Assembly: GCA_001460835.1 (NCBI GenBank)
Contig: CYKH01000651.1
Coordinates: 1,014 to 44,843 of the forward strand
Direction: 5' to 3'
From: Bodo saltans
Taxonomy: Eukaryota; Euglenozoa; Kinetoplastea; Eubodonida; Bodonidae
DNA length: 43,830 bases
Shown here in pieces: positions 1 to 15,600 of this stretch; within the stretch, counting starts at the first letter, position 1; every line of letters begins with the position of its first letter. The notes beneath the pieces are model-generated. The model made no database searches. It was not told the origin of the DNA and worked only from the letters and a program-made list of their open reading frames with translations. A program made the position numbers and the translations under genes.

Positions 1-368
1 CACGAAAATGAACCTATGCAACGGTAATGTTCGCCAAACCGTTTTCGGAGACACAAATGAACCTATGCAGCGGTAATGTTCGCCAAACCGTTTTCGGAGG
101 CACGAAAATGAACCTATGCAACGGTAATGTTCGCCAAACCGTTTTCCGAGACACGAAAATAAACCTATGCAGCGGTAATGTTCGCCAAACCGTTTTCGGA
201 GACACGGAAATGAACCTATGCAACGGTAATGTTCGCCAAACCGTTTTCGAAGACACGGAAATGAACCTATGCAACGGTAATGTTCGCCAAACCGTTTTCG
301 GAGACACGAAAATGAACCTATGGAACGGTAATGTTAACGGTGATGTTCCAAACTGTTTTGTGAGACAC
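1..368. repeat. 51-bp minisatellite, 7 copies plus a degenerate eighth
   Basis: The phrase aacctatgc recurs at 11, 60, 111, 162, 213, 264 and 315, giving a period of 51 bp; the first interval is 49 bp because of a 2-bp deletion. A decayed partial copy follows at about 334-368. Copies differ by single substitutions. Each unit holds a short imperfect inverted repeat (aacggt / accgtt). Because 51 is a multiple of three, open frames exist on both strands, but I do not regard either as a gene. The array runs off the left edge, so its full length is unknown. Confidence 0.95.
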
Positions 369-1767: not shown

Positions 1768-1787
1768 TTTTTTTTTTTTTTTAAAAG
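1768..1787 (+). promoter_or_regulatory. Candidate spliced-leader acceptor for the giant reductase gene
   Basis: Fifteen consecutive T (1768-1782) are followed by aaaag, with AG at 1786-1787 and the ATG at 1794. Only six bases would lie between acceptor and start codon, a very short 5' UTR. Assignment as a trans-splice site is inferred from kinetoplastid convention. Confidence 0.6.
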
Positions 1788-1793
1788 GTTCGC

Positions 1794-4700
1794 ATGATTT
1801 TTTTCGTGTTTTCATTCTTGATCGTGGCTGTCGCAGAATGTTCGTTTTTCTCTTCAAACGCTACGATTTCGTTTCGTGGCACAGGCACTGCACTCGTAAT
1901 GAATGACACCATTGAGAGTGGTGAAATATTTGTTTTCAAGACAAAGTTTAGGAGTACATATGATGACTTTGGCACATACGATGAATTGTGGCCGTTGTTG
2001 GTGCAAATTCCTTCGTCGCACAACAGCTTTTTGAAGATATCAATAGTCGTGGTGCCAGAAGGTACAGCACAGATCACTTCAACTGCTGTTCTGGATGAGT
2101 TCATCGTTTTCCCAACTCCATACCTTTATCACTGTCTTTTGAGCAATTCAACAAATGAGGTCCCTTTCACCCGCAAAGAATTGGCAATCGTTGATGGTGG
2201 TCAAAAAGTTCAATTGACAGTTTTCCGTGACACTGACAGCAGTATTTCGAACTTGGATGCACTGCCAGCGTATGAGGTTATTGACCCAGTAACTCTGGCG
2301 AATCGATATGTTGTAATTGACAAGATTCCAGGAGACATAGGATACTCACCAATCCGTCATTGGTTCACAGTGTCTTCTCAACAGAATTTTACAACTGTGA
2401 GTGAAATTCTTGCAAGCAACTTGATTGTTGTTGATACTTTTATCGAAACTGTGGTTGCCCTCGGCGACTTCAGTTTTATCACACCAATTTCAAACTTGTC
2501 TGCGTTTGCAACCAGCAACCAGTCCGGAACCTTCGCTGAAGTATCAGTTGATGGACTGTTGATCCCCATGTCACTCCTTCCCACTGGGAATGTCGACAAT
2601 GAAACCCAAAAAATTTCTTCAGGGTTCATGATGGTGATTGAAGGGCAGCATCCTGTTATCGACTCCATTCCAGGGGATCCTCAATTTTCTTTTGCTCGTG
2701 CTGTTGTCTCTCTGTCACGTCAAACTGCAACTATCACATCACACGAAATGGTCAATTTTAGTTCTTTGGCACACAACTTTAGCGGAGACATTGTCAACGT
2801 TGTTGTTGTTGATGGCGATGTCCCTGGCGCACTTCGAGCTTGGTACAGAAATGAGACGGTGTGGGTCTTGATTCTTGAGTCACTTCCAAATGGTTGTGAA
2901 TTGCTTACAAATACCGCTGGGCTGCTTCAGTTTCAGCGCAACAATGAATCAACACCCATCAAGTCACTTTTCAAAACTCGTCCTCGGGAGTTTGATGAAA
3001 TTTTTTACTCTCCGTTTGTGTCGAGTGCCACTATTGACGTTGATGCATCGTTCTCTGACACAAGTTCGATTCCTGTGACATCATGGGACGCAACACCACA
3101 AATTTCTACCTCTCCAAACAATGATTTGTTCAATGCTCCAAGGAGATTGAAAGAACCTGCGGCTACGGACTTGAACAATCGGTTCGAATTCGCTTCATCG
3201 CGAAACATGTCAATCACAGTTGACTGGCATTTTTCGGATTGCTGTGCGTTTATTGATGTTGCTTTAGAAAGTGTTTCCCACCTTCACAATCCACTCGTTA
3301 TTGGCTTTCATGGCAAGTTGCCCTTCGCTGGAACGTTGTTGGTGGTTCACTTCGACCTTTCTGGCAACCAATGCACTCGACAGGTTCGAGGAAGTGTGTT
3401 GTCTCCAAATGAGTTGATCGATGTGACGGCAACCAACCCGTTGCAACTGTTGAAAACACCTGTTTTTTCACGCAAAATTGCGAATGGAGGAAAACTAGAG
3501 ATGCTGTCGATTACGGCGAACATCACAAACTTCTCAAACACAACTTCCTACCTCACTGCAGGCGTGCTCGACATTGATTCAAGTCGCCTGATGACTTGCT
3601 CAACCCTTTCTTTGAGTGGCTACTCTTTTCTGGACGACTCAATCTCTGAAATGCAAAGCGCACCCGTGACATGGGTGCCTGGGATATCAAATCCCAAGCA
3701 ACAGGGAAGACTATTGTCAAGTCTTGAGAATTTTGGTCTTCCGTCAACCATTTCCGACCCTCCTATGAATCTTCAAATTGAACCTGAAAGAGCAAACCTC
3801 ACTTTGCCACTTTCAAACCAGTCTAAGGGAGCGTTTCGTTGCGACTCGTCTTTTTCCTTTAGCTGGTCGTTTATCAACGCATCAACCAACGCTATGTACT
3901 TTAGCATTGTTCCTCCGTCCAATTTGAATACGTCGATGTATTTTGGGCTTGGGATTGGAAGTACCAGTCTCAGTGGTTCTGATGCGTTTTTTGTGTACCT
4001 TGATGCGCGGAACTCTTCGTTGCTTGTTTCAATCGACACCAAATGCAGCGCTTCTGGGAGCTCGACATTCTGCCTTAGAAGTAAATACAGCGATGGAGTT
4101 GTTTCTGTGTTTGGAAATGAATCACTTTGGGTCGTTCGACGCTCCGCAATTGTTTTTGATCCTGCTTCGAAGTTGCTTGGAACGAGTCTTGTTGGGAGCA
4201 CGATTGACACGACAGCAGCCTTCGGCGGCATTGGACTGTCTGTTAACTACGTTGCCTTCGCAAACACACCAGCGTTTATTTTCCAAGATAATTCCGTTGG
4301 TATGGCACCACTTTACCGTTTGCGCAACGAAACTGATCTAAATTCTACAGCGGACTTTTGGCCACCGTCGGAGGCTCAGCTTTCGCTTTCTCAGCCGTGG
4401 AGATACTATCTTTCTGCTGTTGCTCCTGGAACAGTGGGATACAGCGATCTTCGCAACATCGTTGATGTATTCATCCCTTCCAACTACGTTGGTGAGCTTC
4501 CGCAGAGGGTTTTGGACCTTCCAGAGACATGGAAGAGGCAACCATCGCGTCCATTGAATTGTCCCATGGTTCACCGCAGCAGTTCGCTTTCCACTTCAGT
4601 TGCTACCGCCGCAGTAATGCTGCCAGTTATGTTTGATGGTGTAACCTACAGTTGTGTTGCTTTTCTCTCGCCACAGTTTTCGAACTCTTCGAAGACACAA

Positions 4701-7700
4701 CGTGTCTACGAGCTACGGTCTTCCACAAACTTGACGTTGGAATACATATTTGAGTTCACACCCGATGCAGCGAACTACACTCCGTTTGGACACATGTATG
4801 CTGTGATTGTACCAACAGCGTTGCAAGGAGCACTGCAATCTGCTGAAGCCATCCTTCACTCTGGCCTTCCATTGATTGACCTGGATAGCTTCGTCAACTT
4901 CCCAATCATATCTTCATCATCAACCCCGGCGCCAACAACAGTTGTAACACCATCTGTTGAGGAATCGTATACATCCCTGTACGAGCACAGCTTGCTGCTC
5001 TTCGCTGACGTTTCATTGGACCAGAGAATTTTGCTCGTCTGGAATTACAACATCGATCTTCAGACAATTGATGTCGCTGTGCTGGCAAAAAATACGAATG
5101 GCTACATTTCTCTTGGGTTTTCAAGCAGCTCCACTTCGCAAATGGAAGACTCTGATATCGTACTTGGGTACATAAACTCTGCGACACTCGAGGGCTGCGT
5201 GCGCGTGCTGTATTCTGCCTTTCCAACAAGTGCACCATCAGGAACTCCAACGTTGGAAATTCGCTCGTCGAGCATTCAACGCAGCAGTGACTATTTGATA
5301 TTATCGTTCTCAAGAGACTTCGATGGCAGTGCACATTCATCTGGCGTCATCCCAAGCCCAGCGACGACTGGCGTAGCGACTGGTCGAGTCCTGTTTGCAT
5401 CACTTCTCCAGTACGTTGCTTCCGAATGTGCGAGCACTGAATTCTCTTCGTTGTATCATGGGACATCACCCCACGGTTCCGTTCTTATCGACTGGGCTGC
5501 GTCCACGTCGTCTACTGTAGCAACCCCGGCCCCTTCGACTTCTGTGCCAAGCACCACTGCCCCGACAGTGATCACGTTGACAGCATTCAACATTCAAGCA
5601 CGACCGGTGTACGTTCGTGGTGCGTTGGGCGTGATGGTTTGCGCTCCGTCATCGTTCCCAGTTGCAACACAGCCATCCACTGAATCTGAGTTCGGCATTC
5701 CGACTTTTCCGGCGATGTACCAGTTTGTGTTCAACGGCACCGTGCTTTCAAGCATCCTGCCGCTGATTGCAACATACCCCCAGTCGTCAGACTACAGTGG
5801 AGCATGGCGCATCCACCTTGTAAACCTGTCAGGCGCTTACAGCACTGCAGCCTCAATTGCAAACATCACTTCCTTCGCGGCACTACAAACCTTGGTAAAT
5901 GCAACGACTGCGATCGTCCCCACCGATTATTACCTTGATTGTCCGATAGTGAGCCAATTGACAACCGCACCAAACACAACGTTACGCGCTCTGTTCTTTA
6001 ATGGTCAATCCATCAGCTGCTTGCAATTGTCTCAAGAGTCGCTTCGAACAACTGCGAAATTCTCACCATCTTCAAAAGTTGCTCCGCTGTGGAATACGTC
6101 GTTTTCAGTTTCTATCATCGATGATCCGGCAGCCATGTTTTTTAAAGTGTTCCGAGTGAACTCATCGAGTAACGCAACGTTCCGAGCAGAGGATGTTTCG
6201 ACGTTGCCACGAATCTCAACAGGCGATATATTACAATGCAGGATTATTGTCAACACAACCAAAGCGCCAGTGTTATTTTCCAATCTATCGCTTGCTCTCC
6301 AGCCAATCACGCTGACAAAGCAATCGGCAACTTTTGGAAATCGAACAGTTTCCTTCATTGCTTTGCCATCCATCCGCGGGGGACGTTGTGCAAATCTTCG
6401 CAGCGGGTGGAGCCGCACTGGCGTGGCAACCCTATACCTGCTGCGGAACGTTTCTAAAAGTAGCAATGCCAACGATTCGTTACAGAATCTGAACGCGACA
6501 GCACTTCACGATATTCTCGCGGACTCATCCACATTGGCACCCCTACTATCGATTCGAGTTCGCAATGCATCCATAGGGTTGAGGAACCGAACAGTTTCTG
6601 TTGTTAACACGACGACGAATGTCACTGTCAACACAACAATCCAAGACACAGTCTTCGCAGAAATCGTAGACACTGCCGTCGAGTCACGTTATTTCGTTGA
6701 CGCGATGCCCGTGGTGAATGAATCGACGTACTGCGATGGCGTGTGGCAGGTCGTGATGGTTGACGTTTCATCCGTCCCAGCGGAGGACAACGTGACGCAA
6801 CTCAACGCAACCACAGGAACAGGTAATGCCACAGACAGCGGCAACGGCACGATAATTCCAGCTTGGCATTCTGGTGAATTTGTGCCGTCAGCTAGGGGTG
6901 ATGGATGGTACATTCCGTGGTGGGCCAATGTCAACACCATCCGCAGCCTCCCGCAGCGTTTGGTGAATGGCACCCTCCTTGGTTCCATGCTTCACTGCCC
7001 ACTGATTCATAAAAACACAACTGTCGAAGGAGGCGCAGCCACAATTCAGCGATTGTCCGTTCTTACTGCAGGCGGCTTCGTTGCCGACTGCCTGAACTTC
7101 GGTTGGCTGAATGAAGCCACAGCAGGAGCCGTCCTTCCCAATTTAGTGAATGTCTCAACGGCCGGCACCTTCGTCATGGACGCAATTCCGGGTTCACGAT
7201 ACTTTTCGTCGATGTTCTGGCTCCGTGAGCTCCGCGGTGTATCTCGTACTCCAACTTTCGTAAACGTATCGCTTCTCACAAATGATTCGTATCAAGTCGC
7301 ATACGTTCTTGTCCTCTCCGTCACAGGTGGGACACCAGGCAGCGCCGTCTCATCTCTTACGTCGTGGAATCTCACCCAGGCATCATGGAATTGGGCGACG
7401 CAAGGGTTGCAAATACCCATCACTGCTGTGGGACGTTCCGCATCAGATTCGTTTGGAATGATGTCGTTGACGAACTACTGGAACATGTCTGTGTTCCCGT
7501 GGAGTGCCATGCAGTGTCTCGACAGGTACAGTGCCAACTGTTCTCTGGGCCTTCGTAATACTCAAAAGTTGTTGATAAGCGCGTTGTCAGTAATTTACGT
7601 CTTCCGTCGAGGGACAACCATCGGCAGCCCCTCCGTGTCGCTCAATGGCAGCACTACACCAATGCGCTCCGTTGCCCTCCACTCCCCCCTGCAGTCTTAC

Positions 7701-10700
7701 TATAACGCTGCCAACGGTTCGTGGGGCTACACAGATCCAAAGCGCGTGGTTGTTGTGACGGTGCCGCCGACGTACAGCGGATCCGAAATCGGGAACGCGT
7801 CGCTCATCCCTAACACGTGGGTGCAGACCACCGCCGCAAACGTGGTTGGTCATTCGTTTTTGCTATCCACGGCTTCTGGGGTGACACCGCTATCACCACC
7901 TTCCACGTTTGGCCGTTCTATGTGGTGCCCTGCGACGAGTGTGTGGGCCAACGGGCAATTGTGGAGCACAGTTGACTGTGGATGGGGCCCAAGCACCAAG
8001 TCTATGGCCGTTGCGTCACTATCAATGACAACCCAAACCCCACCAACCTCGTCAACATTATTGTTCATTGGGAGCAACGTGACGAGCATCGCTTCGTTTG
8101 CACCACTTCACATCAACAACCTCAACTTGAAGCTTGCCTACAGTGTCTACAACACGTCCAGCACAAGGCAGTGCAACAATTCTGCCTTTGTGGTGGACCC
8201 ATCGACGCCCCTCCCTGAGTTAGTTCAGCTTCTCGTCATTCCCCAACATTTTCCTACCATGCTTCCTGAGAGTGGGAACGCAATGGTCAAGTTTGTGTTC
8301 CGGCGAGGCCCTGCTTTGTCAAGCTCTGGTGACGTTGCACCTCCAGTGATATCTTGGGCTGGAGCAGGCATCGGCTCATCAAACAGCGTCCCCAGCATTG
8401 CCCGAGTGTTTGTTGTCAATGTTGGCGCATTCATGACGTCAGCAGACTTGTACGATATGACGCTGACCACCGAGTATGAGATTCGCTCCGCAGCCATTCG
8501 CAACTGCTGGCCAATTCTTGAAACACTCAAGATTGAGGCGAGTGTCCTCCTTTACTACCAGTCGAATATCTCCAATGCAGACCTGGCCACATATCAAGCG
8601 CGCCGCTCACCATCTAACAGACTAGAGGTGGTTCCGGTGTTTGCCAATGGGATGCCGAGGCTGCAAATCGCCTCGCGAATTCTAGTGGAAGACGTCGCAG
8701 GTCGTACGAGTCTCTCACCCCGTGCGTTGGTGGCCGCAGATGGGTCGATGTTCCTAGCCCCTAAGGCTTCTCCGTCGTGGTTGCCCATTGTCCACGCCAC
8801 CGCCTCAGGTTCCTATGCAACTTTCACCAACCCTTCTCAGCTCCTCGGAACCATGGACACGCTTGTGTCGCTATTGGAGGCGCCATCCGCAGCGACGGTT
8901 TCTAACTTCATGCTGGTACAAGTAGTGGATGAGGCTTACGCGCCTTATGTCACTCCACCAGCTCAAGGGCAGACATTGACACGTCAAACTGCGTACTTCA
9001 ACGATAAGCAGCTGGCGGCGTACATCTTCTCAGATCGGAATCTCTATAACCCCACCCAACCATCCCCGTTGTACATATTCCGCCGCCTCAGCAGCACTGG
9101 GGCAGTGCTCTCCACTACTGGTGCCCCTCTTCTCGATGCTCTGCCGGGCCACGCTACATACAACGACTTGCACGAGTTGGTGTACTGCGACTTGCCGTCC
9201 ACATCGTCGACACTGCCAGCCCCAACCTCCATCGCCGCAATGCGCAGAATGCTTGCGCAACGAACCATCTTGGCACCAAAACAGAGTGGCATCATCAAGC
9301 ACGCACCAATAGTCGGTGCGGGCACGACAGTGGAGTTGCAAGATCAAGTTGCTAACGGTGGCAGCGTTCTAGGGCCTTCAGCAGTCGTTTTCGAAGGATC
9401 GACCCTTGCAATGCTAGATTTTGGTATTACCACAGTGGGGTTTGCGCCTGAGCTCTCCATTGCCATGCGCCTTTTGTACCAACTGAACAGTTTTCCAGTC
9501 CCCGATGGATGGATACTGAACTCTGATCCGTGGACCAATACCACAACATACTCGTTTCTGCGAAATACACACTGTACCATTGTGCCGAATTGGTTGCTCC
9601 CAAACACCATCACATCTCAGTCCGCAGCGACGAAAGTTGCACTTCAGAACGCAACAACTGCGTCGACACTGTGCAACCGCAATCTATCGGTCGCGGTGGT
9701 GGGGGTCACAACCGTCACAGCGGCCAGCAACGGGAATATCAGCACAACTGGTCCTACCCTCATCAACTGGGTCTACGGCACCGTGAACTACTCTTCCGCC
9801 ACTGGTGTCGTGACAAGAAGTGCGCCCCTTCGCAGTGGCAGTGGGACCATCGATTTTTTCACAGGCAACGTGACTGGGTCGACAAGCGTATCATCCGACT
9901 GGATCAATATTACGAACGGCTCCACCACTGTAACACTGAGTGACTCGCTGACTCTTTCATGGGAGCTCGGAACGTTGGGCGCAACTAGCAGCACTGCACG
10001 TCGTAGCTTTCATACGTTAGACACATCCCCCATTGACATCGCAACCTACGCACCGACGGAGCTCTACGCACAATTCAAGATTACCGTCACGGCCGATGTG
10101 TGGGTGGGTTTGGGCCTTACCAACAGTGGGGGGATGAGCGGGGCTGACATGTGGATTGCCTACGCATCTCAATCCGTTCCTGCAGGTTCGGTTTCGTCTG
10201 GCTACTACTACGAACTCTCCGATCGCCACGCTGACCCGACCAACGCCCACAACACCCCGATCAAAGATACAATCAACGACCTTGAACTTTTGTCATTAGA
10301 ATTGACAAGTTCAGGATACGTCATTGTATTCCGTCGACGTCTGATCACCACAGACAGCGAGAACGACATCGATATCCAAAACACACTCCAAACGATGCTC
10401 TGGGCCTATGGTCCGTATCTGCTCACTCAACAGACACCCAACACACACACAAACCGCGGGCTGCTGTTGGTGAATCTTTTTACTGGCCAGAATATTTCTG
10501 TGGAACAGCGTGGCTTCACATTTTGGTACGTGGCAATGATCATGGGTGTGACTGTGTTTATCATGCTGATCGGATTCTTGGCACGGCTGCTGTCGCCTGG
10601 GTACTTGATGTATAAGAGGCCGCTCCTCTTTTTATGGGCATCCAGAGGATTGCGCCGCATGACAGTGGCAGAGATTCTAGTGCTGTTTATGCTGTGGGGT

Positions 10701-12215
10701 GCTGGGGCTGCCTGGGGCTACGGAAACTTCACCAATTACGATGTCTCGCGCCGCTCAGATGGCGTGATCTTAGCGATTGGCAACACAGCACAGTACTTAC
10801 TGTACTTCGGTCTTTTCCCAACTGCCAGAAACAATATCTTGATCACTGGCGTGTTCCGGTCAAGCTGGCACAAGTTGCAGCACTGGATCACGCTCTTGCT
10901 GCTGCCCGCCCTCGTGTTATCTTGGGTGCATGGCGGCATCATGATGTATCGCCAACCCCATCTCTCCTTTCACACTACCAGTGGCATCTGCAGTATCATC
11001 GGTCTGAGCCTTCTTACACTGGCATATGCACTGTGGCACTCAAGTGACTTCGTTCGTCGAGGTATTCTTCGCCGTGTTGTGTCGCTACGTCGACAGCATA
11101 CCTTGTACCTCATCGTCATTGGTGGTGCTGTGGCATTGTTGTGCATTCACACCAACAAACTTGCCCTAGGCTGGATCCCGTGGTTCATCCTTTTCTTCAC
11201 GGATCATGTGTGGCGGTGGAAGGATTTTAGATCACGTTTTGGTACCGTTGTGGCCCAGGGCGCATTCAGTACCATCGCTGCAGCGTTTGAGCTTCGAATC
11301 TTCTCGCCCTGGAAGTCATGGTGGACTCGTCCTTTTGTCGTGTCCGCTCCTGGTCAGTTCATTCTCGTTGACATGGAGGGTGTTGATGAGGGCCCTATTG
11401 CACTGTCAATCAGCAGCAGAGTGTTGCAGGATCCCAAGCAGAACTTTGCGACGGCCACATTCCATTTGAAGCCACCAAGTGCAGGAGCCCAGAAACGAAT
11501 TACAAAGGACCGTGAGGGATATCTAGGTGCCCGCGAGCGTCTCCGGCGGCTTGCGGTTGACCAGCATCTTCAAGGCCGCTTCTGCAGGATTGAGGGCCCA
11601 TACGGAGGCATTGGGCTTCGGCTAAAATGGTACAAGTCACTACTCCTTGTCGGGGGCGGCATCGGTGCATCGACGTGCCTTTCCCTACTCGAGGCGATGA
11701 CGTTCCAACCTGACTTCTACGCTCAAGATACAAGTGTCGAGACTGTGACGCTTGTTCTAGTCGCCAAGGAACCTGAGGAGTTCGCTATCTTCGCTTCTGA
11801 GTTGTTTGAGCTGCTCAGCGCACCTCGAGCATTCGATTTACAACTACTCTTGCACTGCACTTCGTTGAAGTATCACCAACCTCCAACTGCACTGTCTGAT
11901 GGAAATTTCCACAGCCTCGTGGATGTTGCGTCACCGCCACGCCGTGCGACAGCCCCACCAGTAGACTTCTCAAATCCAAGTGCCCTACACCCACTGTTTG
12001 AGCACGTGCCCATCTTCTTCCACCGCCCAAATTGGACACAAATCATCACGGCAGAACAAATCGCTGCGGGGAAGCGGAAAGAGACGCGCCTCGCGGTGCA
12101 CGTCAACGGGCCATCAACTCTCACTTCCGAAGTTCTAGAATCAAGTGATGCACTTAGCTACTTTGGTGGCGTGCAGATTCATGTGGACTACGAGCAGTAC
12201 GACTTATGCGTTTGA
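1794..12215 (+). CDS. Giant DOMON-repeat ferric reductase/NOX-like membrane protein, 3473 aa
   Basis: Likely moves electrons from cytosolic NAD(P)H through FAD and membrane haem to an extracellular acceptor. Residues 1-16 form a hydrophobic signal peptide. Residues ~17-2900 form a Ser/Thr-rich ectodomain with dozens of N-x-S/T sequons and about nine degenerate repeat modules. A DOMON domain lies at ~1070-1210 (GYISLGF and MEDSD motifs) between two Thr/Pro linkers (~1040-1057, ~1239-1264); a second DOMON lies at ~2716-2877 (VWVGLG, GMSGADMW). Six or seven membrane helices follow (~2908-3142), with His pairs in two helices (HW...VHG; RQH...CIH) that fit b-type haem ligation, spaced slightly wider than usual. 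Then come a PGQF...SISS FAD-binding segment (~3186-3210), a GPYGG...LVGGGIG nucleotide-binding segment (~3270-3300) and a final NGPSTLTSEV. The HPF-type FAD motif has lost its His-Pro. The frame is intact over 10.4 kb. Enzyme class is well supported; the substrate is unknown. Confidence 0.85.
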   Translation: MIFFVFSFLIVAVAECSFFSSNATISFRGTGTALVMNDTIESGEIFVFKTKFRSTYDDFGTYDELWPLLVQIPSSHNSFLKISIVVVPEGTAQITSTAVLDEFIVFPTPYLYHCLLSNSTNEVPFTRKELAIVDGGQKVQLTVFRDTDSSISNLDALPAYEVIDPVTLANRYVVIDKIPGDIGYSPIRHWFTVSSQQNFTTVSEILASNLIVVDTFIETVVALGDFSFITPISNLSAFATSNQSGTFAEVSVDGLLIPMSLLPTGNVDNETQKISSGFMMVIEGQHPVIDSIPGDPQFSFARAVVSLSRQTATITSHEMVNFSSLAHNFSGDIVNVVVVDGDVPGALRAWYRNETVWVLILESLPNGCELLTNTAGLLQFQRNNESTPIKSLFKTRPREFDEIFYSPFVSSATIDVDASFSDTSSIPVTSWDATPQISTSPNNDLFNAPRRLKEPAATDLNNRFEFASSRNMSITVDWHFSDCCAFIDVALESVSHLHNPLVIGFHGKLPFAGTLLVVHFDLSGNQCTRQVRGSVLSPNELIDVTATNPLQLLKTPVFSRKIANGGKLEMLSITANITNFSNTTSYLTAGVLDIDSSRLMTCSTLSLSGYSFLDDSISEMQSAPVTWVPGISNPKQQGRLLSSLENFGLPSTISDPPMNLQIEPERANLTLPLSNQSKGAFRCDSSFSFSWSFINASTNAMYFSIVPPSNLNTSMYFGLGIGSTSLSGSDAFFVYLDARNSSLLVSIDTKCSASGSSTFCLRSKYSDGVVSVFGNESLWVVRRSAIVFDPASKLLGTSLVGSTIDTTAAFGGIGLSVNYVAFANTPAFIFQDNSVGMAPLYRLRNETDLNSTADFWPPSEAQLSLSQPWRYYLSAVAPGTVGYSDLRNIVDVFIPSNYVGELPQRVLDLPETWKRQPSRPLNCPMVHRSSSLSTSVATAAVMLPVMFDGVTYSCVAFLSPQFSNSSKTQRVYELRSSTNLTLEYIFEFTPDAANYTPFGHMYAVIVPTALQGALQSAEAILHSGLPLIDLDSFVNFPIISSSSTPAPTTVVTPSVEESYTSLYEHSLLLFADVSLDQRILLVWNYNIDLQTIDVAVLAKNTNGYISLGFSSSSTSQMEDSDIVLGYINSATLEGCVRVLYSAFPTSAPSGTPTLEIRSSSIQRSSDYLILSFSRDFDGSAHSSGVIPSPATTGVATGRVLFASLLQYVASECASTEFSSLYHGTSPHGSVLIDWAASTSSTVATPAPSTSVPSTTAPTVITLTAFNIQARPVYVRGALGVMVCAPSSFPVATQPSTESEFGIPTFPAMYQFVFNGTVLSSILPLIATYPQSSDYSGAWRIHLVNLSGAYSTAASIANITSFAALQTLVNATTAIVPTDYYLDCPIVSQLTTAPNTTLRALFFNGQSISCLQLSQESLRTTAKFSPSSKVAPLWNTSFSVSIIDDPAAMFFKVFRVNSSSNATFRAEDVSTLPRISTGDILQCRIIVNTTKAPVLFSNLSLALQPITLTKQSATFGNRTVSFIALPSIRGGRCANLRSGWSRTGVATLYLLRNVSKSSNANDSLQNLNATALHDILADSSTLAPLLSIRVRNASIGLRNRTVSVVNTTTNVTVNTTIQDTVFAEIVDTAVESRYFVDAMPVVNESTYCDGVWQVVMVDVSSVPAEDNVTQLNATTGTGNATDSGNGTIIPAWHSGEFVPSARGDGWYIPWWANVNTIRSLPQRLVNGTLLGSMLHCPLIHKNTTVEGGAATIQRLSVLTAGGFVADCLNFGWLNEATAGAVLPNLVNVSTAGTFVMDAIPGSRYFSSMFWLRELRGVSRTPTFVNVSLLTNDSYQVAYVLVLSVTGGTPGSAVSSLTSWNLTQASWNWATQGLQIPITAVGRSASDSFGMMSLTNYWNMSVFPWSAMQCLDRYSANCSLGLRNTQKLLISALSVIYVFRRGTTIGSPSVSLNGSTTPMRSVALHSPLQSYYNAANGSWGYTDPKRVVVVTVPPTYSGSEIGNASLIPNTWVQTTAANVVGHSFLLSTASGVTPLSPPSTFGRSMWCPATSVWANGQLWSTVDCGWGPSTKSMAVASLSMTTQTPPTSSTLLFIGSNVTSIASFAPLHINNLNLKLAYSVYNTSSTRQCNNSAFVVDPSTPLPELVQLLVIPQHFPTMLPESGNAMVKFVFRRGPALSSSGDVAPPVISWAGAGIGSSNSVPSIARVFVVNVGAFMTSADLYDMTLTTEYEIRSAAIRNCWPILETLKIEASVLLYYQSNISNADLATYQARRSPSNRLEVVPVFANGMPRLQIASRILVEDVAGRTSLSPRALVAADGSMFLAPKASPSWLPIVHATASGSYATFTNPSQLLGTMDTLVSLLEAPSAATVSNFMLVQVVDEAYAPYVTPPAQGQTLTRQTAYFNDKQLAAYIFSDRNLYNPTQPSPLYIFRRLSSTGAVLSTTGAPLLDALPGHATYNDLHELVYCDLPSTSSTLPAPTSIAAMRRMLAQRTILAPKQSGIIKHAPIVGAGTTVELQDQVANGGSVLGPSAVVFEGSTLAMLDFGITTVGFAPELSIAMRLLYQLNSFPVPDGWILNSDPWTNTTTYSFLRNTHCTIVPNWLLPNTITSQSAATKVALQNATTASTLCNRNLSVAVVGVTTVTAASNGNISTTGPTLINWVYGTVNYSSATGVVTRSAPLRSGSGTIDFFTGNVTGSTSVSSDWINITNGSTTVTLSDSLTLSWELGTLGATSSTARRSFHTLDTSPIDIATYAPTELYAQFKITVTADVWVGLGLTNSGGMSGADMWIAYASQSVPAGSVSSGYYYELSDRHADPTNAHNTPIKDTINDLELLSLELTSSGYVIVFRRRLITTDSENDIDIQNTLQTMLWAYGPYLLTQQTPNTHTNRGLLLVNLFTGQNISVEQRGFTFWYVAMIMGVTVFIMLIGFLARLLSPGYLMYKRPLLFLWASRGLRRMTVAEILVLFMLWGAGAAWGYGNFTNYDVSRRSDGVILAIGNTAQYLLYFGLFPTARNNILITGVFRSSWHKLQHWITLLLLPALVLSWVHGGIMMYRQPHLSFHTTSGICSIIGLSLLTLAYALWHSSDFVRRGILRRVVSLRRQHTLYLIVIGGAVALLCIHTNKLALGWIPWFILFFTDHVWRWKDFRSRFGTVVAQGAFSTIAAAFELRIFSPWKSWWTRPFVVSAPGQFILVDMEGVDEGPIALSISSRVLQDPKQNFATATFHLKPPSAGAQKRITKDREGYLGARERLRRLAVDQHLQGRFCRIEGPYGGIGLRLKWYKSLLLVGGGIGASTCLSLLEAMTFQPDFYAQDTSVETVTLVLVAKEPEEFAIFASELFELLSAPRAFDLQLLLHCTSLKYHQPPTALSDGNFHSLVDVASPPRRATAPPVDFSNPSALHPLFEHVPIFFHRPNWTQIITAEQIAAGKRKETRLAVHVNGPSTLTSEVLESSDALSYFGGVQIHVDYEQYDLCV

Positions 12216-12643: not shown

Positions 12644-15600
12644 ATGTCTCAATATGAAGCGGAGTTAACAGAGGAAGAGCGTTGGGCGCAGCTGATCGGA
12701 GACGGCGATGCAGATCTGGATCAGCCTGTTGAGCGGCTGCATAGCTCCTCGCAAAGCAGCGGCCCAAGGGTGAGACACAATGCTGCGGCATCGAAGGGTG
12801 AGGCTAGTCAACCAAAAGCGACGAAGCCAGCACCTGCCAAGAAGGAGCCAGCACCACTGGCAACAAACGGAAGTCAGGCCAAACCTGTCGTGCCCTCAAC
12901 TGGTACCTCCCAGCGACAGACCACCCTTAGCGAGATGCGCGTAAAGTCATCACAGTCTTCGGTGGACTTCGAGAAGTTGATGGAACGTTTCCAGTCCCAA
13001 GATGATCAGGAGGATCAAGGCCCAGTCGATATGTCGCGTTTTATGGACGACGACGACGACGACGATGCACCCCAACGAGAGGCAACCTTCTCAGCAGAGG
13101 GTTTTCTGAATGCGCTCACAGGTCTTCACACGACGGACGACGCCACTTCCACCACCAATGAAGAGCAACGTTCTGAATGCGCTCACAGGTCTTCACACGA
13201 CGGACGACGCCACTTCCACCACCAATGAAGAGCAACGAGTGAAGCCCACGTTGGATCATCTGTTCGACCGCATCAAAGAAGAAGAAGATGATCGAATTGT
13301 TGTTCCACTTTCGGACGACATCATTCCCACAGGCGTGACACCAGCGTCCTCCAAAGGAGCAACGAAGGGAAAATCTTCACACACAAGTGTTGCTGCGCAG
13401 CCCGCATCATCTGGCAAGCAGAATTTTGTGAAGAAAGAGGTCGTTGCAGCACCTACAGAGATTGTTGCCAAGAGTGAAACCGCAAAGGTTGAGCCTGACG
13501 CGTCGTTATTCTCTGAAGTGTCCATCAAGAAAGAGGAGGCAAGTGACGATACGGTCATTCCCGCCGAAGCTGCTGTCTACTGGTTCGATGCGAAAGAGCA
13601 AGATCACCACCACTCCGTTGACCCAGGGTCGATCTTTCTGTTTGGAAAGTATGTCGTAGGCGTTGGATCCAACAAATCATTCGAGAGTTGCTGCATTCGT
13701 GTGGTGAACGTGGAGCGCACTGTGATGTTCCTGCCCAAGGCGGGAGTGCAAGAAGTGGATGTCATCCACGAGGTAGCGTCCTTGTGCAAGAAACTTCAAA
13801 TTCCTAGCTTCCGCTTCAAAGTCGTGGAACGACACTACGCGTTTGAGGAACCCAACATTCCCAGAGACTGCAAGAAATGGGTCAAACTGCGCTACCCCGC
13901 AAGACACGGTCCTTTCCCTACCAATGTGAATTGGATCAACGTTGAGGCGGTTGTGGGTGCGGATAGGTCGCTTTTAGAATGGTTTATTTTAAAGCGTTGC
14001 CTCCGTGGCCCGAGCTACCTACGCATCGGTGAGTGGATGCCCGTTCCCGAGGGGCAGCGGGTCACACATTGTAAGCATGAATTCCGTGTCCTCAATCCGA
14101 AGATGGTGACCCCAATTGACGGGGGTGTGCCTCCCCCACTGGTGGCTGTGTCCATCCAGCTTCAGACGCAGCTCGATGCATCAGAATCTCACAATGAGGT
14201 ACATGCAGTGTCTCTTGTTGTCTGCAAAACAATCGCTGCTGATGGCTCTGCGAAGACCGCACCCATCTCCCAGCAAATGATAGGAGTTCGACCCTTCAAC
14301 CCCCAGAGCCCACTTCCCATAGATGTTGAAAAGTTTTGTGCTGGTAGAGGCCTGTCCTCAGTGCGCCGCTTCGCCAATGAGGGCCAATTGCTGCAGTGGG
14401 TTGCAACGATGCTAAAAGACATCGATCCCGATCTCCTGGTGGGGCACAATTTTATGGCCTTTACCCTTGACGTCCTTCTCCACCGCTTCCAAGCTCATCG
14501 AGTCAACAACTGGTCCTCGATTGGGAGGCTTGACCTTCGTCAATTCCCGAAGCTGCAAAGCGGTGCAGGTGGCACAGGTGAGTCCACATACCAAGAGCGT
14601 GAGATTGTGATGGGTCGTTTGGTAGTCGACACCTACCTGCTTTCACGAGAGTACTACAAGAGCAACAACTACAAGCTGATTGCACTGGCACAACAGTTGT
14701 CTCTGCACGGTATATTTGGACCAGTTGCGGAAAATTTCGAAGATAGTGTGGTGCCCATGGATGCCCGCAACATGACCCAGAATGCATTTTTATTCGATGT
14801 CCTTGCACGAAGCCTGAATCACGCTGTACTTGCACTCGCGCTGGCGAACCAGCTTGACGTCGTACCACTTACCAAGCGTCTTTGTTCGCTGGCCGGCAAT
14901 TTGTGGATTTTTTTTTTGCCGTAGTTTAGCAGGCTCAAGAGCGGAGCGCATTGAGTATCTGTTGCTGCACGCATTCCACCAGCTGAAATTCGTGACACCA
15001 GACAAGAAGTCGTTTTTTTTTTGCCGTAGTTTAGCAGGCTCAAGAGCGGAGCGCATTGAGTACCTGTTGCTGCACGCATTCCATCAACTGAAATTCGTGA
15101 CACCAGACAAGAAGTCATTCGAGGCCATCGAGAAGGCAAAGCGCAGTGAGATGGAGGAGGATGGCGGTGATGGTGCGGCAGCCACAATGGGAGGAACGTC
15201 GCGCCGTGCCAAGGCCAAGTACAAGGGTGGTATGGTGCTTGAGCCAAAAAGCGGATTGTACACCGATTACATCCTCATGCTAGATTTCAACTCCCTCTAC
15301 CCCTCCTTGATCCAAGAGTTCAACATCTGCTTTACGACTGTTCGTCGCGCAGGTGGGTGCGAAGTGTTTAAGGAGGATGAGGATCCCACGGCGCCTAGCG
15401 GTGTGCCTCCCCCAGAGCGACTTATCTGCAAGAATTGCAGCGCGTTGGGGCTGCCATCCCCGTGCATCCACCGCTGCGTTCTGCCGAAGGTGATCAAGAG
15501 CCTTGTTGACAGCCGCCGCGAGGTGAAGCGACTGATGAAGTCGGAACGCGACCCAGCCAACTTAGCCCAACTTGAAATTCGCCAGAAAGCACTCAAGCTC

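Follow-up and report, generated by a model that had tools for sequence, protein, structure and literature searches.

A giant Bodo saltans protein joining a repeat ectodomain and two DOMON domains to a ferric-reductase-like core

A 10.4-kb reading frame in the genome of the kinetoplastid Bodo saltans raises the question of what a ferric-reductase-like protein does with a giant ectodomain and two DOMON domains. The frame lies in a stretch of 43,830 nucleotides of contig CYKH01000651.1 (assembly GCA_001460835.1, positions 1,014 to 44,843, forward strand), which is called the window below and whose numbering is used throughout.

A single open gene and its surroundings

1794..12215, + strand: giant DOMON/ferric-reductase-like protein; single uninterrupted open reading frame of 3473 residues, ATG to stop
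1768..1793, + strand: possible spliced-leader acceptor; T15 (1768–1782), AAAAG and six nucleotides, then the ATG

The giant gene is real and open. Its frame of 3473 residues, as delimited by the initial annotation, is intact from ATG to stop, and base-shuffling it 20 times gives stop-free runs of at most 196 codons. The T15-AAAAG stretch (1768–1787) is the sole tract of at least 14 pyrimidines within 400 nucleotides upstream of the frame, none lies inside it, and the stretch could be the spliced-leader acceptor of the gene. Such a signal is not general in this DNA, because only one of the 12 other frame starts that were checked has a tract of this length within 400 nucleotides upstream, and 11 are without one.

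The 19-base pattern that we take to be the 3′ end of the kinetoplastid spliced leader occurs twice in the genome, and a control pattern does not occur. Contig C232 starts with this spliced-leader end (L013:1-19, G000:C232:1-19), followed by eight nucleotides and an open reading frame that presumably encodes ribosomal protein eL43. The start of the contig resembles a mature mRNA, and it is either cDNA-like sequence in the assembly or an integrated cDNA.

The left end of the window (1–335) is a 51-bp tandem repeat of 6.6 copies, adjoined by a low-GC stretch that extends into the N-terminal third of the giant frame. Upstream of the giant gene, positions 443–1684 hold a 413-residue frame with a TTG start, a GC3 of 0.41 and no Pfam match. 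The adjoining gene for a family-B DNA polymerase (PF03104, PF00136, zf-DNA_Pol) is split into separate frames near two tandem duplications, an exact one of 67 bp (13104–13237) and one of 105 bp with 96% identity (14908–15117). The split is due either to an assembly error or to a recent event.

Searches of the own genome (29.3 Mb in 934 contigs) with residues 1–2735 and with residues 2701–3473 returned only the gene itself and no second copy; six-frame searches of this kind score only the best candidates, and distant relatives can be missed. The two genome-wide matches to PF03351 are both DOMONs of the giant protein. No relative has been confirmed among pattern matches in genome contigs (8 and 103) or in viral contigs (0, 17 and 0). 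A tblastn search of plasmids and phages with the ectodomain gave no match, and the own-genome reductase L003, used as a control, matched 57 plasmid records.

The repeat ectodomain and the DOMON domains

1794..1859, + strand: hydrophobic N-terminus, probable signal peptide (residues 1–22)
2265..2528, + strand: ectodomain repeat A (residues 158–245), overlapping a weak DUF7482 match
2625..2888, + strand: ectodomain repeat B (278–365)
4299..4673, + strand: ectodomain repeat C (836–960)
4695..4928, + strand: ectodomain repeat D (968–1045), doubtful
5706..6038, + strand: ectodomain repeat E (1305–1415), the best score, 27.5 bits
6666..7103, + strand: ectodomain repeat F2 (1625–1770)
7143..7373, + strand: ectodomain repeat F3 (1784–1860), doubtful
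7593..7991, + strand: ectodomain repeat G (1934–2066)
8280..8528, + strand: ectodomain repeat H (2163–2245), doubtful
9057..9431, + strand: ectodomain repeat I (2422–2546)

The hydropathy of residues 1–22 agrees with the signal peptide proposed earlier. The part of the ectodomain that lies outside both DOMON matches comprises about 2,700 of the 3,473 residues. Residues 21–2900 contain 72 sequons, compared with a mean of 32 and a maximum of 51 in 1000 shuffles, which suggests that the giant ectodomain is probably glycosylated. Much of it consists of what are, by their sequences, diverged repeats with the pattern Y.F.R / PG...Y / (N)CP.V / G...C. Ten units of 77–146 residues were picked by eye after a weak match to the family DUF7482 (PF24298), described below, had appeared and with the look of that family already in mind, which may have biased the selection; two additional candidates (in A3) stand outside this set. 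Each unit was scored with a hidden Markov model profile of the other nine and compared with 500 shuffles of the same segment. Seven of the ten (A, B, C, E, F2, G and I) have scores that none of the 500 shuffles reaches. Of the 500 shuffles, four reach the score of D, nine that of F3 and four that of H. With profiles of the seven strong units, D scores 5.3 or −0.9 bits, F3 scores 0.5 and 0.8 bits, and H is not listed, and these three units are therefore doubtful as repeats. Profiles of all ten units find no further unit above 1.0 bit. Thus, the repeat ectodomain of the initial annotation stands for seven units, with three in doubt, and its proposed glycosylation agrees with the sequon excess.

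The relationship of the repeats to DUF7482 is a lead below the cut-off. Segment 1–335 of the protein matches PF24298 at residues 171–202 with an E-value of 0.0092 and 16.1 bits, against a cut-off of 27.5 bits. Two of the four machine consensus versions of the repeats also give sub-threshold matches (E 0.15 and 0.27; 12.2 and 11.3 bits) and the other two give none. The real segment and the two consensus versions fall on the same stretch of the profile, and DUF7482 is the sole Pfam family that answers both at one profile position. None of the ten single units matches it, including repeat A alone. The level of the E-values is within noise, because unrelated families score similarly on other or the same segments, reaching 0.02–0.04 on some of them (PA_Ig-like, E 0.033; Imm6, E 0.024). 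A search for DUF7482 gave no match in the own genome and none in the control genomes, and the family is named in no paper of the open-access literature searched.

5019..5330, + strand: DOMON1 (residues ~1076–1179), Pfam PF03351
5142, 5457 and 5472, + strand: candidate haem ligands of DOMON1, M1117 with H1222 or H1227, respectively, placed by context
10065..10412, + strand: DOMON2, adjoining the membrane (residues 2759–2873), Pfam PF03351
10134 and 10446, + strand: candidate haem ligands of DOMON2, M2781 and H2885, respectively, placed by context
3846..4028, + strand: possible degenerate third DOMON (residues ~685–745)

The protein contains two DOMON domains, which match PF03351 with a whole-protein E-value of 1.2e-27 and 97.1 bits; the individual stretches score 52.9 and 48.5 bits against a cut-off of 32.7. 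The two domains had been placed side by side, and this layout needs correcting, because DOMON1 sits in the middle of the ectodomain, about 1,580 residues from DOMON2, which lies just outside the membrane. The possible third DOMON scores 13.8 bits against 32.7 (E 0.07) and is without a methionine at the haem position. DOMON and NAD_binding_6 are the only Pfam families found in the giant protein up to an E-value of 1.

A Met/His pair holds the haem in the DOMON of the cytochrome domain of CDH, as seen in its crystal structure, and the pair is described as conserved in insect CG8399 and has been modelled in plant HYP1 (PMC10691727, PMC10784544). Both DOMONs of the giant protein offer a corresponding pair, M1117 (in the context QMEDSD) with H1222 or H1227, and M2781 (GMSGAD) with H2885; the candidate histidines lie just beyond the ends of the Pfam matches. 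The gap from methionine to histidine is 104–110 residues in both domains, and the published pairs are closer (M90–H174 in HYP1 and M286–H379 in CG8399; PMC10691727, PMC10784544). The pairs fit as candidate haem ligands, and they are placed by context only, because neither DOMON1 nor DOMON2 matched a solved DOMON by sequence. Both domains would probably hold haem.

Membrane core and cytosolic domains

10512..11168, + strand: multi-pass ferric-reductase-like membrane core (residues ~2907–3125), from hydropathy and the own-genome profile; haem histidines from alignments, outer 3046 and 3119, candidate shifted inner 3030 and 3102
11349..11471, + strand: flavin-binding region with the worn motif GPIALS, from the paralogue alignment
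11631..12140, + strand: cytosolic NAD_binding_6 domain, retaining GGGIG and with NGP in place of CGP

Five stretches between residues 2907 and 3125 pass the hydropathy cut-off. The Pfam family Ferric_reduct does not match the giant protein up to an E-value of 1, and the giant gene is not among the seven Ferric_reduct matches of the own genome. A profile made from the membrane parts of six of these own-genome ferric reductases (L003–L008; the stop-interrupted L009 was left out) scores the giant core at 19.9 bits, compared with 8.9 bits for the best of 1000 decoys (500 block and 500 full shuffles). The profile of L005–L008 alone, which bear ectodomains, gives 14.5 bits, reached by none of the 1000 decoys, and that of the plain reductases L003 and L004 gives 9.7 bits, reached by one of the 500 block and none of the 500 full shuffles. 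Therefore, the core belongs to the ferric-reductase type, with a leaning to the class that bears ectodomains. The initial annotation had described a NOX/FRE-type haem core, which the own-genome profile supports and Pfam does not recognize, and its central claim, that DOMONs are joined to a ferric-reductase-like core in one protein, is upheld. Judged by sequence, the membrane and cytosolic part is a divergent ferric reductase.

The inner haem site of the core is not canonical. H3046 and H3119 occupy the outer-haem positions in both alignments. The inner position of the fifth transmembrane helix is filled by H3102 only if an insertion of some three residues is allowed ahead of H3119, and that of the third helix is Ile3032, with histidines two residues away at 3030 and also at 3026. 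Thus, three of the four haem histidines that are canonical for eukaryotic ferric reductases (eFREs) align, one of them only with the insertion. The spacing between the histidines is 16 and 17 residues in the giant core, compared with 14 in the third helix and 13 or 14 in the fifth helix of the paralogues. In one reading, the inner haem may have come to lie closer to the cytosol by two to three residues in each helix; in the other, it may have been lost. The chance of finding a histidine within three residues in both helices is about 1%, a rough, post hoc figure based on the local histidine frequency.

By the published criteria, as given in PMC3591440, the core is neither NOX-like nor STEAP-like. 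The position of His-119 of NADPH oxidase, four residues after the outer histidine of the third helix, is Met3050. The arginine of the third and the glutamine of the fifth helix of STEAP/YedZ are absent, their places being taken by Ile3032 and by Tyr3105 (from the spacing of 14) or His3102 (from the alignment). The protein has no Pfam match to cytochrome b561, the core of the cytochrome b561–DOMON proteins (CYBDOMs), and has NAD_binding_6 instead. A sequence search of the PDB with the core returned only NOX2 and a ferric reductase, with E-values of 0.0075 or worse; beyond these, the queries, which also included the whole protein, each DOMON by itself and two profiles, yielded chance-level rows. 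Structure prediction yielded no confident model, either for residues 2703–3473 alone (mean pLDDT 38) or from a seven-row alignment of the protein's own repeats (mean pLDDT 43).

The cytosolic NAD(P)H segment predicted earlier is present, with NAD_binding_6 matching at an E-value of 1.5e-12 and 48.3 bits against a cut-off of 22.2; the predicted FAD segment is not recognized, and FAD_binding_8 has no match up to an E-value of 1. The own-genome paralogue L007 is also just below the cut-off of that family (21.0 versus 22). The motif GPIALS replaces the HPFT of L003, L004, L006 and L007 or the HPFS of L008 (the frame of L005 ends before it), and a flavin may still be bound there. The CGP of L003, L004 and L007 is NGP in the giant protein, GPYG and GGGIG are intact, and the C-terminal end is unlike that of the paralogues.

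Relatives and possible function

Ferric reductases with extracellular DOMONs were already known as an architecture class, because Zhang et al. described in 2013 a single clade of such eFREs from Naegleria and stramenopiles, with one or two DOMONs in Naegleria gruberi (seven paralogues), Albugo and Phytophthora, and classed DOMON as an electron-transfer module (PMC3591440). The statement that no protein of this layout had been described thus does not hold for the fusion itself. It stands for the giant version, as no description of a DOMON–ferric reductase with a giant repeat ectodomain, or from a kinetoplastid, was found in the open-access literature among the matches listed. Its distinctive features are the size, the repeats and the altered inner haem site. 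Like the giant protein, these DOMON-bearing eFREs (N. gruberi, Albugo laibachii F0X089 and Phytophthora infestans D0MUZ3; model M10) carry DOMONs on a ferric reductase, and a signal peptide is given as predicted only for a two-DOMON homologue (PMC3591440). As far as the published description of the eFREs allows a comparison, the giant protein differs from them in its repeat ectodomain of about 2,700 residues, which precedes and separates the DOMONs, in lacking recognized Ferric_reduct and FAD_binding_8 domains, and in its non-canonical inner haem site (PMC3591440).

The CYBDOM proteins (plant HYP1/CRR, insect CG8399 and human SDR2/FRRS1) share the Met/His pair, and their DOMON haem is thought to relay electrons from the membrane haem protein to a metal outside (PMC10691727, PMC10784544); by contrast, they have a cytochrome b561 core, ascorbate as the donor, no NAD(P)H domain and no such repeat ectodomain. 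In oocytes, HYP1 carries trans-membrane currents from cytosolic ascorbate to ferricyanide, and its DOMON ligands could not be tested, as the mutants mislocalize (PMC10691727, PMC10784544). Candida Frp1 and Frp2, and fungal FREs with CFEM-like N-termini, likewise combine a relative of ferric reductases with an extracellular haem-binding module (PMC9635878), but the module is CFEM and not DOMON, and for Frp1 and Frp2 the hemophores are separate proteins. By analogy, HYP1 is the nearest functional precedent with a measured activity, and Frp1 and Frp2 are the nearest for haem capture.

Ahead of the membrane core, each of the own-genome reductases L005–L008 carries one ectodomain or two, of about DOMON size, in which a methionine and a histidine are invariant; these reductases differ from the giant protein in having no such repeats and in keeping the four canonical histidines. 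That the ectodomains are true DOMONs is not supported, with none of the six domains matching Pfam and a probability of 0.3% in a profile comparison with the two-row profile of DOMON1 and DOMON2, and only the shared Met...His pattern points to DOMONs. Recognized by no Pfam family, these ectodomains are possibly a diverged haem domain family.

Kinetoplastids are known to be wholly or partly without haem synthesis. Neither ALAD nor ferrochelatase found a match in the own genome, and of 14 control genomes the same search matched ALAD in 11 and ferrochelatase in 8, those with a match being prokaryotes. The organism thus looks like a haem auxotroph, which suggests that its haem comes from outside and makes haem a plausible ligand or cargo of the giant protein. 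A search for the HRG haem transporter was uninformative.

We propose, with a probability of roughly 0.5, that the giant protein is a haem-wired electron conduit across the plasma membrane with iron or haem as the outside acceptor. Electrons would pass from cytosolic NAD(P)H through flavin to the haem of the membrane core, from the outer membrane haem (H3046/H3119) to a b-type haem at Met2781/His2885 of the membrane-proximal DOMON2, and on to an acceptor outside the cell, for which ferric iron or captured haem is the likeliest candidate. DOMON1 would hold a second haem (Met1117 with His1222 or His1227) and would either capture a ligand or come close to DOMON2 as the repeat ectodomain folds. The giant, probably glycosylated ectodomain would serve reach or capture. 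The cell-surface address, the redox activity, the electron flow, the acceptor and the seating of an inner haem on the shifted histidines are what we infer from these domains. The case against a redox function, which remains plausible, comes mainly from the worn motifs of the flavin and inner-haem sites, and these are the reason why the reduction of iron or haem is put forward conditionally. A bolder proposal, which we consider improbable as a whole, is a surface machine of a haem auxotroph in one chain, in which repeats that trap haem or haemoproteins, two haem DOMONs and a core in which both helices place the inner haem two to three residues nearer the cytosol would together reduce haem from food bacteria and release it at the membrane.

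It is possible, if somewhat unlikely, that the core has lost or is losing its redox function and that the protein now serves to receive or scavenge haem; its DOMONs and repeats would take up haem or haemoproteins derived from food, and its membrane part would anchor the trap or pass haem on. The worn flavin and NAD(P)H motifs and the non-canonical inner haem site agree with such a scavenger, as does the failure to find ALAD and ferrochelatase in the own genome. So do the fungal ferric reductases with CFEM-like N-termini and the need for Candida Frp1 and Frp2 in haem uptake, where they are proposed to free haem from CFEM hemophores (PMC9635878). However, a dead anchor need not keep an NAD_binding_6 domain recognizable at an E-value of 1.5e-12 with GGGIG and GPYG intact. 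Moreover, the authors of the Frp study consider a haem-reductase role, so that the precedent is no argument for a loss of redox function (PMC9635878). The extent of the ectodomain outside the DOMON matches, its repeats and its enrichment in sequons would also suit a protein that is mainly a surface adhesin or coat, its repeats contacting prey or substrate and its redox part being minor or a regulatory leftover; but an adhesin does not need the Met/His pair of both DOMONs or the recognizable NAD-binding domain, all of which have been kept, and we regard this role as doubtful.

An assembly chimera, or two genes read as one, is the least probable explanation and in our judgement very unlikely. 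The GC3 rises along the frame from 0.43 to about 0.6, and the adjoining polymerase gene is interrupted close to the two tandem duplications. However, the climb is gradual and has no single break, homologous repeats flank the change (A and B versus C, E, F2, G and I), and the frame is open over 10.4 kb. The absence of long pyrimidine tracts inside it also speaks for one gene, although such tracts are not general before other frames. Furthermore, introns are described as exceedingly rare in kinetoplastids (PMC7859406).

The electron conduit remains our preferred reading. A CRISPR/Cas9 protocol has been reported for B. saltans (PMC9544060). If the concerted shift of the inner-haem histidines is real, it would also probe how much variation the NOX/FRE core tolerates in the distance between its two haems. 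To our knowledge, the uptake of haem and iron from prey by free-living kinetoplastids is poorly known, and a single gene that unites repeats of a capture-like kind with candidate haem DOMONs and a reductase core provides a directly testable candidate for it.
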